Part shown: positions 6,073 to 41,095 of the stretch, in pieces | Position numbering within the stretch: the stretch's first letter is position 1 | Layout of the letters: each line of letters begins with the position of its first letter | Origin: Nigrospora sphaerica | Taxonomy: Eukaryota; Ascomycota; Sordariomycetes; Amphisphaeriales; Apiosporaceae | Length of the DNA stretch: 64,000 nucleotides | Reading direction: 5' to 3' | Assembly (NCBI GenBank): GCA_018287875.1 | Contig: JAGVVL010000002.1 | Span: 6,200,001 to 6,264,000 of the forward strand | Program-made: the position numbers and the translations under genes | Notes under the pieces: generated by a model | Database searches by the model: none | The model's input: only the letters and a program-made list of their open reading frames with translations | Told to the model about the DNA's origin: nothing

Positions 6073-9006
6073 ATGGTCAACTTCACAGTATGTCTCCCAT
6101 ATCCCATTCCTGCACGATTCACGCTATCCGATTCCCGCGGCTCGCTTTCCCCCTCCGCTGCCATTCCTTGCCACCGCGACCCCTCCATAGCTTCACGAAC
6201 ATCGACACAATAACATCCGACGACAACCACCATGCGATTTTCTGAGCTTTACATACTAATATCTCTATAGGTCGACGAGATCAGATTGTTGATGGACAAG
6301 CCGCACAATGTGCGCAACATGTCCGTCATTGTGAGTATCTCATTCCATCATGAAGAAGACGAAGACTAACAGATCTCAAGGCCCATGTTGACCATGATAT
6401 GTACACCCTTTTCTTTGTTTTAAGCTTCCTATGATTTCTAGAATACCATCACCGTGTACTAGAGTGAGGGGGTGTGAGTTGGTCGGACGTATCGCTAACA
6501 TTTTTCCACGCAAATCCACCCTGACCGACTCTCTGCTGGCCAAGTGCGGTATCATCTCGACGGCCAAGGCTGGAGATGCCCGTGCCACGGATACCCGTGC
6601 CGACGAGCAGGAGCGTGGTATCACGATCAAGTCGACGGCTATCTCGCTGTACGGTGAGCTGCCGACCGAGGAGGACCTGAAGGACATTGTTGTGCCCAAG
6701 GCTGAGGGCAACGGCTTCCTGATCAACCTCATCGACTCGCCTGGTCACGTTGATTTCTCGTCCGAGGTCACCGCTGCCCTGCGTGTTACTGATGGTGCCC
6801 TGGTCGTCGTCGATACCGTCGAGGGTGTCTGTGTGCAGACGGAGACTGTGCTGCGTCAGTCCCTGGCGGAGCGCATCAAGCCCGTTGTCATCATCAACAA
6901 GGTCGACCGTGCTCTGCTTGAGCTCCAGGTCAGCAAGGAGGACCTTTACCAGTCGTTCTCGCGTACCATCGAGTCCGTGAACGTCATCATCTCGACCTAC
7001 CTCGACAAGTCGATGGGTGACCTCCAGGTCTACCCCTACAAGGGCACCGTTGCCTTCGGTTCCGGTCTGCACGGCTGGGCCTTCACCGTCCGCCAGTTCG
7101 CCACCCGCTACGCCAAGAAGTTCGGTGTCGACCGCAACAAGATGATGGAGCGTCTCTGGGGCGACAACTACTTCAACCCCCACACCAAGAAGTGGACGAC
7201 CAAGAGCACGCACGAGGGCAAGGAGCTGGAGCGTGCCTTCAACCAGTTCATCCTCGACCCCATCTTCAAGATCTTCAGCGCTGTCATGAACTTCAAGAAG
7301 GACGAGGTCGAGACCCTCCTCGCCAAGCTGGACCTCAAGCTCGCCGCTGAGGACAAGGACAAGGAGGGCAAGCAGCTGCTCAAGGTGGTCATGCGCACCT
7401 TCCTGCCCGCTGCCGACTCCCTGATGGAGATGATGATTCTCCACCTGCCCTCGCCCCCGACGGCCCAGAAGTACCGTGTCGAGACGCTGTACGAGGGTCC
7501 CATGGACGACGAGGCCGCCATTGCCGTCCGTGACTGCGACCCCAAGGGTCCCCTCATGTTGTACGTGTCTAAGATGGTGCCCACTTCGGACAAGGGTCGC
7601 TTCTACGCCTTCGGCCGTGTCTTCTCGGGTACCGTCCGCTCCGGTCTCAAGGTCCGCATTCAGGGCCCCAACTACGTCCCCGGCAAGAAGGAGGACCTGT
7701 CCATCAAGGCCATCCAGCGTACCGTCCTGATGATGGGTGGCAAGGTTGACCCCATTGACGACATGCCCGCCGGTAACATCATTGGTCTGGTCGGTATCGA
7801 CCAGTTCCTCCTCAAGTCGGGTACCCTCACCACCAGCGAGACTGCCCACAACCTCAAGGTCATGAAGTTCTCCGTCTCGCCCGTCGTGCAGCGGTCCGTC
7901 CAGGTCAAGAACGCCCAGGATCTGCCCAAGCTGGTCGAGGGTCTCAAGCGTCTGTCGAAGTCGGATCCTTGCGTCCTGACCATGTCCAACGAGTCCGGTG
8001 AGCACGTCGTTGCCGGTGCCGGTGAGCTCCACCTCGAGATTTGCCTGAACGATCTCGAGAACGACCACGCTGGTGTGCCCCTCATCATCTCCGACCCCGT
8101 CGTCGGTTACCGTGAGTCGATTGCCGGCAAGTCTAGCATGACCGCTCTGTCCAAGTCGCCCAACAAGCACAACCGTATCTACATGACGGCTGAGCCCATG
8201 GACGAGGAGCTCTCCCTGGCCATCGAGGCCGGCAAGATCTCGCCCCGCGACGATTTCAAGGCCCGTGCCCGCACCCTGGCTGACGACTTCGGCTGGGATG
8301 TCACCGACGCCCGCAAGATTTGGTGCTTCGGTCCCGACACCAACGGTCCCAACCTGCTCGTTGACCAGACCAAGGCTGTTCAGTACCTGAACGAAATCAA
8401 GGACTCGGTCGTCTCCGGTTTCCAGTGGGCCACCCGCGAGGGTCCCGTCGCCGAGGAGCCCGTCCGTTCCGTCCGCTGGAACATCATGGATGTCACCCTC
8501 CACGCCGATGCCATTCACCGTGGTGGTGGTCAGATCATCCCCACCTCGCGTCGTGTCCTGTACGCCGCTGCCCTCCTGGCCGAGCCCGCTCTCCAGGAGC
8601 CCGTCTTCCTGGTGGAGATTCAGGTGCCCGAGCAGGCCATGGGTGGTGTCTACGGTGTCCTGACCCGCCGCCGTGGTCACGTCTTCGCTGAGGAGCAGCG
8701 CCCCGGTACTCCTCTGTTCACCATTAAGGCCTACCTGCCCGTTATGGAGTCCTTCGGCTTCAACGGCGACCTGCGCCAGGCTACCTCCGGCCAGGCCTTC
8801 CCCCAGATGGTGTTCGACCACTGGCAGGTCCTGCCCGGTGGCTCGCCGCTCGACGGTACCTCCAAGGTCGGTGCCATCGTCCAGGGCATCCGTAAGCGCA
8901 AGGGTCTCAAGATCGAGGTTCCCGACTACACCAACGTAAGTTACTTGACATACCTGATGGCCAGTTGGATTCTAACGAGTTATTGCAGTACTACGACAAG
9001 CTGTAA
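6073..9006 (+). CDS. Translation elongation factor 2 (EF-2)
   Basis: Five exons, 6073-6087, 6271-6330, 6381-6396, 6510-8935 and 8989-9006, encode 844 aa, the usual EF-2 length. EF-2 is the cytosolic GTPase that moves the ribosome after peptide transfer. All G motifs are present: AHVDHGKST (26-34), [15 protein letters not shown] and NKVD. The diphthamide histidine is H700 in [10 protein letters not shown]. The last exon encodes YYDKL. Three exons are tiny (15, 16 and 18 nt). Introns 1, 2 and 4 are GT-AG. Intron 3 (6397-6509) runs from AT to AC and splits the codon of P-loop Gly31; only this junction gives HVDHGKST. Codon choice is strongly biased toward C-ending codons, as expected of an abundant protein. 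Confidence 0.97.
6397..6509 (+). other. Non-canonical AT-AC intron in the EF-2 gene
   Basis: The intron is 113 nt long. Its donor reads ATATGT, which is the common fungal donor GTATGT with A for G at the first base. Its 3' end reads GCTAAC-ATTTTTCCAC, that is, a standard fungal branch site followed by a short pyrimidine tract and terminal AC. Exon 3 ends CAT-G and exon 4 begins GC-AAA-TCC-ACC, so the join gives His-Gly-Lys-Ser-Thr. The donor does not match the U12 consensus ATATCCTT, so I infer a U2-type AT-AC intron. Confidence 0.9.
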
Positions 9007-38641: not shown

Positions 38642-41095
38642 CGTGGTGTGCGTGCGCTCGAAAGGCACGGAGTAAACGTCGCGGTCGGGCGGGATATTAT
38701 CATGACATGGACACGCCTGGTTCAAGAGTAGTCTACGGGCGGGAGCCCCTCCAAAATGGCAAAACATCGCGTTGTTGATTCAACAGCCCGATGCAGTCTA
38801 GTGCAGAGCGTGGTCCGTGCATGGTTACATATCTCAGTACTCGATTGCGCCACGAGCTACTCACTGCCAGGGTCCAGTCCAGTCGTGAATATGCAGGGAG
38901 GTGGGCGGCAGTACGAAGTATTCCGTACCTAAGCTTCTTCCAGCGTGTGCATGCTTCTCCTTTTACACACGCCATTCATCGACCTCCGTCCCGTTCCAGC
39001 AGCGCACACACGGAATGGTAGCCACGGTGCTAGCAGACATTTGGAAACACATCGTGCTTGTCCGCGGCTGGCCTGTTGGCACCATACATAGCTGCATACC
39101 TCAAGTGGATGTGCTGTTGGCGCGTCAAATTCCGGATTGCGAATATCGGGTTGTCAGGCAGAAACTCCCAGAGGACCGCTCGTACAAATGCACCGTCAAG
39201 CCCTTCGGCGGCTCAGCTAAGCTTGAATTTGACACACGTGTATCTTTAAACTGTGGTATTTGATCAAAAGAATGCCGTTCTGTTGAAAGCATCTGCTGCG
39301 GTTGTGAGCGAGCCCAGCGTGCCATGGCTGTTCGTCAGAAGTGTTGCATCAAGACTTCCAAGACATCTAGGTCACCGGAAGAGAAGTATCGACGACCATT
39401 TGGGATATCTGTAGTCATTAGAGTTCGGTGGATCATTAATCTTGATGCCAGCACTCCGCCAAGTGGCAAAAAGTGCAGTGAGCATGACCGACATGCAAAC
39501 GGTGTTTAGTGGCACCTGGTCATGTACAACTGATGCACGTATGTATGGATATTTCAAAATAAGTCACGTATTCAATGTCTCGATCAGAAAGAGACCTAGT
39601 CAGTTCGTTTGTGTAAGTTGGACAGCCACTTCGGAGCAAAAGTCAGCGATAACTGCTCCTGCACCGGGGATGATGCACACCAATAACACGACGGCCAGAT
39701 ATGAGCTGATCGTCGAAGATACCAGTTGAAGCTCTATATCCCGCCATTCCGAAAAACGCACCAGTCCATTCGGAGTAGGTAGGCAGGTACGGGTTATTAG
39801 AGGAAAGAACAACAAAAACTTGGCAATTTCCAAACGCAGTGCGAACGAGGTGGCAAGTCCGCAGTTGAGGGGTACGCGCAAACGGGAAAAGAAGAGCCAA
39901 GGTACCTAGGAACAGGCAAGTGCGCAATCAGTAACTGTTTTTCGGCATTCCAAGAAATCATCATAAGTATCTGCCCTTACCTCCCCTCTGTCTGCTTTTC
40001 TTCTTCCTTCTTCAGCTCTGTCAGTGCTCCCCATCAGACCCCTCTCCCTGCCACCGTCCGAGCCGCCTGCTAACCATTCCCAAAGTCTTTGCCTTTTGGC
40101 TTAGATCAAGTGTAGTAACTTTTCTTTTCAGCTTAATCTCTGAAAGAGTCCAACAGGACTCGATCGTGATTCGTCGTATTTTTACCCACCAGGCCGGTGC
40201 CCACTGGGCTTGCCCATGGCGTCGGTCACCGTGTCCCTGGTACTACACTGCCTCCGGGTGATGCGAATATACATGTCTTTCATCATGATTCCCAAATCAG
40301 CTGGGGCTCACGAAGAAGGACTGCCGACATCACGATTGGGCGATGCATGTTACTCGTCATATCTGCGGTAACATACATCCAAGGGCAAACGTCGTTATTT
40401 TGGAATTGCGTACTCCAGCGATGCCAACTCGCGACGATAAACAGTTTTACAATCACTTTTGTGCTTGGCCTCGTGACTCTCCCCCGAAATCATCACCATG
40501 TGGCACAATGCCCGTGACCTAGAATACAATGACCACAAAATATACCTCGAATATCGCGCCTCAGTTTTGCCATTGGGGACTTCACGTCACCTAGGTGCCA
40601 ATTAGCCCTAGCAGCCTGTCACGTACCCGGAGCATATACCGAAAGGGTGTTTCCCGACTCTCTTCATCTGCACCTCTACGGTCCGTGTTTCTTTACGTCC
40701 GGGTGTTACATACGCTCGGAATTCCGAAGAGACACATCCTTCGCTCATTCACCAAGACGAGAGCCTTTTTCTATGACATTTTACTACCTAAAGTAACGCG
40801 GCAACCGCACACAAGCCAAGGCGGGGGTGCTAGCTAAACCCCAATGCATTAAACACTTCAGGTAATGAGTATCCCACATGGTCCAGAGATAGGGTGTTTC
40901 CTTGCTGAATTCTTCTAGAAGTGACGAAATCACATGGTCTACTAACTAACAAACAGCAGAAAGCACCCATCCGTGGAAGTAGCGCCAGTGGTATCCCCCG
41001 TAGACATGCAAGTATGCTTGAAGACAATCATCTAGGTGCCCAGTGCCAGTACGTACTAGGTAAGAACGAATTTCTGTCGCTCCGGGGCCAGTATC
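38642..41095. other. Intergenic region upstream of SMC2 and downstream of the AFG1-like gene
   Basis: Most of this 2.45-kb stretch (about 39.0-41.0 kb) is clearly richer in A and T than the neighbouring genes. It includes TAGGTACT-type words near 38925, 39780 and 39905. No open frame shows a domain or spliced continuity. The SMC2 promoter should lie at the left end. Confidence 0.5.

Follow-up and report, generated by a model that had tools for sequence, protein, structure and literature searches.

The gene for EF-2 lies on the forward strand of the analysed window, a stretch of DNA of 64,000 nucleotides. It is split into five exons by four introns, of which the third is predicted to have AT-AC ends. 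The features of the gene are as follows:

6073..6087, + strand: EF-2 exon 1 (MVNFT), from the joined coding sequence
6088..6270, + strand: EF-2 intron 1, 183 nt, GTATGT...TAG, with a CTAAT branch whose A is 11 nt before the end
6271..6330, + strand: EF-2 exon 2, from the joined coding sequence
6331..6380, + strand: EF-2 intron 2, 50 nt, GTGAGT...AAG, with a CTAAC branch whose A is 11 nt before the end
6381..6396, + strand: EF-2 exon 3, a micro-exon of 16 nt whose last base is base 1 of the P-loop Gly codon
6397..6509, + strand: predicted EF-2 AT-AC intron 3, 113 nt (no multiple of three), from the sequence and an enumeration of joins
6397..6402, + strand: 5' splice site of intron 3, ATATGT, equal to GTATGT with A at +1
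6494..6499, + strand: putative branch site of intron 3, GCTAAC, with the branch A at 6498, 11 nt before the intron end
6507..6509, + strand: 3' splice site of intron 3, CAC, as read from the sequence; the intron tail is CCAC
6510..8935, + strand: EF-2 exon 4, opening with GC, bases 2 and 3 of the Gly codon, and then AAA TCC ACC (KST)
8936..8988, + strand: EF-2 intron 4, 53 nt, GTAAGT...CAG, with a CTAAC branch whose A is 13 nt before the end
8989..9006, + strand: EF-2 exon 5 (YYDKL and the stop), from the joined coding sequence

The five exons joined encode 844 amino acids, from MVNFTVDEIR to YYDKL, with a single terminal stop. Among the matches listed the best by score was the EF-2 of Apiospora arundinis, with 92.7% identity over 844 residues. 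The product was classed as EF-2 on its full length, the AHVDHGKST P-loop and an identity of up to 93% to Apiospora-type EF-2. Exon 3 (6381-6396) reads GCCCATGTTGACCATG and its last bases are GACCATG. Intron 3 (6397-6509) reads ATATGTACACCC...GTATCGCTAACATTTTTCCAC and exon 4 reads GCAAATCC / GCAAATCCACC from 6510. Joining 6396 to 6510 gave NMSVIAHVDHGKSTLTDS, with AHVDHGKST in place. The preliminary description had placed an AT-AC intron at 6397..6509 within the P-loop Gly codon, and the bases it gave were found there letter for letter. The 16-nt exon 3 is sandwiched between the 50-nt intron 2 on one side and the AT-AC intron 3 on the other.

Single joins were enumerated with the last exon base at 6382-6499, the next exon start at up to 6599 and a minimum intron length of about 20 nt. 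Joins were retained if the frame was open into KSTLTDS. There were 23 open pairs with GT-AG, GC-AG or AT-AC ends (seven GT-AG/GC-AG and 16 AT-AC). All seven GT-AG or GC-AG joins gave RKST, which bears out the earlier claim that GT-AG alternatives would swap the P-loop Gly for another residue. GKST resulted from one of the 16 AT-AC pairs, the 113-nt 6396/6510 join. This join excises a segment with AT...AC termini and was alone among the single-intron joins tested in keeping AHVDHGKST. Two-intron micro-exon models with GT/GC-AG ends were examined between 6382 and 6514 and none saved the P-loop Gly. Canonical re-splicing (GT-AG/GC-AG) was rejected, as Gly was lost in every single or micro-exon model tested. 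The N-terminus of EF-2 is thus likely to be mis-annotated by gene callers limited to those ends. One further join retained HGKST; it lost VDH, had TT-AC ends and was also rejected. Retention of intron 3 led to an in-frame stop 12 codons beyond VDH. Because the protein demands exactly the 6396/6510 join, the boundaries of intron 3 are fixed independently.

Gly preceded KSTL in 143 of 143 distinct proteins, drawn from the best 120 of 7,994 matches and the best 120 of 732 matches. One of these proteins reads KSTLTTS. In a third set (the best 120 of 274 matches) Gly was present in 118 of 120; P0205 starts past the site and P0245 had no match to the motif. Gene calls with RKST, as read-through of an AC-ended intron would give, were sought in a protein database clustered at 90% and none was present among the best 120 of 732 and the best 120 of 274 matches. 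When genome contigs were scanned for the DNA of relatives, the only matches were two archaeal loci and a weak one in a bacterial bin. A scan of viral contigs gave no match.

The donor of intron 3, ATATGT, matches GTATGT at five of six positions and has the core of a U2-type 5' splice site (G at +5, no CC at +5/+6). The U12 donor consensus is RTATCCTTT, which intron 3 matches at four of nine positions, with GT at +5/+6. In introns 1 to 4 the branch A precedes the 3' end by 11, 11, 11 and 13 nt, and both the branch site and the spacing of intron 3 resemble those of the ordinary introns of the gene. A GCTAAC eleven bases before the end and the lack of an AG within 30 bases of the acceptor had both been described before. 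Both were confirmed, with the branch A at 6498 and the nearest intron-internal AG leaving 31 nt to the end. The best U12-like branch site, TCGCTAAC, matches six of eight positions of TCCTTAAC, which is presumably the U12 branch consensus (TTCCTTRAC). Spacing cannot separate U2 from U12 in this gene since the GT-AG introns 1 and 2 share the 11 nt. The U12 donor is given as RTATCCTT in the available text of PMC2846911, and the optimum U12 branch spacing as 11-13 nt in that of PMC3584512.

To gauge chance occurrence, every interval of 113 nt in the window was examined on either strand, 127,774 in all. A donor with at least 5/6 matches to GTATGT was found in 436 intervals and a CTAAC with its A 8-16 nt before the end in 417. 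Donor and branch site occurred together in three intervals, and together with AT...AC ends in one; intron 3 has all of these features. A special RNA fold in intron 3 was unsupported (z = -0.43).

Spliceosomal snRNA genes were searched for in the whole genome using Rfam families. The control genomes were 14 prokaryotes, which gave some weak matches, none over cut-off. A search for U11/U12 and U4atac/U6atac had been proposed in the preliminary description. None of these four minor families was over cut-off in the whole genome, in a search run without a positive control: the best U6atac match scored 16.7 bits where the cut-off is 33, and U12, U11 and U4atac had no match at E <= 10. The genes for U2 and U1 were located as follows:

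40080..40273 of the window, + strand: U2 snRNA gene (RF00004, 122.7 bits), with the GTAGTA branch-pairing motif
G000:C7:2174492-2174655: U1 snRNA gene (L026), from the Rfam search
G000:C12:7852681-7852838: U1 snRNA gene (L027), from the Rfam search

The U2 gene is over cut-off and lies in this window too, some 31 kb downstream of EF-2. The two U1 genes scored 48.4 and 45.5 bits, below the Rfam gathering score of 69.5, and both start with the standard ATACTTACCT. Judged by these scores, U1 is apparently divergent outside its 5' end. As U1 itself was below cut-off, divergent minor snRNAs could likewise be missed. With the standard bases at the start, neither of the two U1 genes looks adapted to A(+1).

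Two U6 genes were over cut-off and a third match was below it. The two genes, L017 (G000:C12:3548700-3549100) and L018 (G000:C9:780850-781250), each contain an mRNA-type intron. These introns read GTGAGT...CTAAC...TACAG or TGTAG, and joining across them gave ATACAGAGAAGATTAGC. The box that they split is presumably ACAGAGA. Fungal U6 genes with introns are known, and a search of the open-access literature for U6 introns pointed to fission yeast only. With such introns the spliceosome's own catalytic core would depend on splicing.

When 6331-7100 was used to search the DNA of the 51.6-Mb assembly for a second copy of EF-2, it matched this locus only. A search of the genome with PF00009 listed 28 matches. 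ORFs were read at seven of these places besides EF-2 and resemble other translational GTPases; the one with GHLHHGKTAL is presumably Snu114. At locus L025 (G000:C19:620000-629999), an EF-G ORF of 708 amino acids and an EF-Tu ORF of 400 amino acids lie in a row with two further ORFs, presumably pieces of rpoC. With rpoC-like, EF-G and EF-Tu ORFs in a row, C19 (836,366 bases) is probably bacterial and would derive from an endohyphal bacterium or a contaminant.

From its bases and the conservation of the protein, the interval 6397-6509, which interrupts the codon of the P-loop Gly, a key residue for GTP binding, is very probably a U2-type AT-AC intron, and it is predicted to be removed by the major spliceosome. 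In the proposed mechanism base pairs with U1 would form at exon G(-1) and at intron positions +2, +3, +5, +6 and +7, leaving mismatches at A(+1) and U(+4). Positions +4 to +6 (UGU) would be paired to the ACA of U6, and GCTAAC to U2. The usual G-G contact of the second step would give way to one between A(+1) and the final C. An unspliced EF-2 message could yield no EF-2, since retention leads to the in-frame stop, and would probably be degraded.

Other readings of the interval were considered. It may be an ordinary GT-AG intron in which A6397 and C6509 are assembly or sequencing errors. Such errors would fit a donor that is otherwise exactly GTATGT, two bases that are read from one assembly, and an AT-AC pattern that is not enriched genome-wide. 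This reading is nevertheless very improbable: two independent errors would be needed at exactly the two compatible A-C positions, a single error would give GT-AC or AT-AG, neither of which is present, and the assembly is contiguous (C12 has 9.07 Mb). It is scarcely more credible, and if anything less so, that a minor spliceosome survives in this fungus and removes a U12-type AT-AC intron. The AT-AC ends, the 6/8 branch match of TCGCTAAC and a spacing inside the U12 optimum agree with it, but the donor has no CC at +5/+6 and the same spacing is seen in GT-AG introns 1 and 2. The preliminary description had also preferred the U2 type, and this choice is upheld by the donor (5/6 for the U2 type against 4/9 for U12) and by U11, U12, U4atac and U6atac having no match over cut-off in the search without a positive control. 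U12 splicing is listed as missing in Ascomycota in the available text of PMC2846911, and that of PMC10639083 reports no convincing minor introns in the group. U12-type RNA genes were found in only one surveyed fungus according to the part of PMC7072748 available, which draws no conclusion from this.

If another gene supplied the protein, a decaying copy of EF-2 could be expected to have non-canonical splice sites. The chance that the odd splice sites are such decay is minimal, as genome DNA searches with the locus match the locus only, the ORFs at seven of the 28 PF00009 places look like other translational GTPases, and the 844-amino acid frame runs unbroken between exact N- and C-termini. An equally slight chance is given to the interval being removed after translation, or being decoded without removal as an insert that the protein tolerates. 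The frame of exon 4 is indeed open back to 6398, but it reads RKST for GKST and has no AHVDH, read-through from exon 3 frameshifts into a stop, and Gly is present in every EF-2 readable at this position among the matches listed. The U2-type AT-AC intron is therefore retained as the best explanation, as a prediction from the genome.

The genome was searched for further introns of this kind. The pattern ATATGT...CTAAC...YAC had 54 matches genome-wide with a gap of 25-55 against 82 in the reversed control, and 57 matches (intron 3 included) with a gap of 70-100 against 62; neither was enriched. The GT...AG pattern was enriched genome-wide, with 245 matches against 79 in the control. A frame test was applied to 30 loci of the gap 25-55 set, some of them overlapping, with at least 35 open codons required on each side; the other 24 matches of this set and all 57 of the second set lay outside it. 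At the 30 loci 24 candidate joins passed. These were judged by eye without a homology search and none was convincing as a second coding AT-AC intron. At L041/L042, L045 and L058 the listed frame was open without splicing. Given the lack of enrichment, nothing shows that AT-AC introns are used as a class in this genome. Intron 3 appears as an isolated case with no visible class, and the counts could conceal a small number of real AT-AC introns.

The preliminary description had proposed a comparison with the EF-2 genes of related fungi. The gene models of named relatives cannot reveal introns and raw genomic ORFs were used instead. Seven proteins among the best 120 of 7,994 matches (P0007, P0018, P0043, P0049, P0075, P0110 and P0118) were taken as raw ORFs because they read past the last exon junction and have no YYDKL end. 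Left out were P0100, a possible but less clear eighth, and the annotated models with odd C-termini P0003, P0004, P0005, P0019, P0054 and P0104. MSVIAHVDHGKST was uninterrupted in seven of the seven raw ORFs, so introns 2 and 3 are both absent from them, and the position of intron 3 is empty in all seven genomic ORFs compared. In a tree of 38 EF-2 proteins the EF-2 of the window was the sister of a clade that holds P0007 and five species of Apiospora, with support of 100/99 at both forks. The tree left the order within the clade of Apiospora and P0007 unresolved. Among the models left out, P0004 (Apiospora rasikravindrae) and P0005 (A. saccharicola) are EF-2 models of 1093 and 1050 amino acids with PF03069 and no YYDKL end. 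They are probably gene-model fusions across the last EF-2 intron.

Intron 3 is absent from the seven ORFs, one of which groups with Apiospora, and is therefore probably young. The simplest history is that this lineage acquired introns 2 and 3, which would have created the 16-nt exon 3. A less simple alternative is that they arose at the base and that the lineage of P0007 later lost them. Copying from another genomic site was not supported as the origin of introns 2 and 3: in a DNA search of the genome they matched only themselves. Three families of direct repeats were found nearby, none touching intron 3. A more specific and rather doubtful proposal is that intron 3 was born AT-AC, with no conversion from GT-AG, after this lineage and Apiospora had separated, together with the GT-AG intron 2 located 16 nt upstream. 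The codon it entered would be the most sensitive one of an essential and highly expressed gene. If so, U2-type AT-AC ends would be a direct route to new introns. It would also mean that the major spliceosome copes with such ends at the full flux of EF-2, or that slow removal throttles EF-2. The near relatives without intron 3 allow the question of whether AT-AC introns arise directly to be asked.

If the intron is as predicted, EF-2 in this fungus relies on a spliceosome built for GT-AG introns using AT-AC ends correctly. The supply of EF-2 might then respond to the state of the splicing machinery, as the preliminary description had suggested. Contact between the first and last intron bases has been studied mostly with mutated reporters, and intron 3 would be a natural high-flux substrate for it.

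Intron 21 of human SCN4A has G at +5 in a 5' splice site whose core is U2-like. Its termini are AT-AC, yet it requires the major spliceosome (Dietrich et al. 1997, as given in the available part of PMC2831892). U2-dependent AT-AC introns are also attributed to Wu and Krainer 1997 in the available text of PMC6726248. EF-2 intron 3 shares the AT-AC termini and the need for the major spliceosome, shown for SCN4A and predicted here. It differs in its fungal donor ATATGT, its strong CTAAC branch and its place inside the EF-2 P-loop codon. With U12-type AT-AC introns it shares the termini and the branch-to-end spacing, but it does not have their 5' splice site core and no minor snRNA was over cut-off. 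The section of PMC2831892 available argues that U2-type AT-AC introns can become trapped, since switching type would take changes at both ends at once. Tolerance of the A-C pair is documented for yeast, an organism without a minor spliceosome, where AT-AC came next to GT-AG in efficiency among the junctions of a mutated intron (Parker and Siliciano 1993, as cited in the portion of PMC6726248 available).

The preliminary description held AT-AC introns to be rare. This is correct, though ascomycete AT-AC junctions have already been published, as the available text of three reports makes clear. In Trichoderma longibrachiatum AT-AC was found in 69 of 14,305 junctions (PMC4324775). AT-AC is among the non-canonical introns of Fusarium graminearum, for which seven shown genes were Sanger-confirmed, the AT-AC gene not being specified among them (PMC3577648). 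In SnowyOwl gene models AT-AC made up 0.03% of introns (PMC4084796). These have the same dinucleotide pair, in fungal groups reported to be without U12 splicing. The Trichoderma and Fusarium junctions are RNA-supported, whereas EF-2 intron 3 is a deduction from a single genome and from the conservation of the protein. None of the three reports names an EF-2 intron in the text available, and no published report of an AT-AC intron in EF-2 was found in the open-access literature, to which the search was confined. The AT-AC protointron of SUT635 is removed in yeast without a minor spliceosome, and protointrons are not conserved in all close relatives (PMC6726248, available part). In SUT635 it is one of two junctions in a non-coding RNA, whereas in EF-2 intron 3 the join appears obligatory and the gene is an essential coding one. 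As U2-type AT-AC introns are known and AT-AC has been reported in ascomycetes, intron 3 is not novel in mechanism. It is notable for its host gene, its codon, the 16-nt neighboring exon and its apparent youth.
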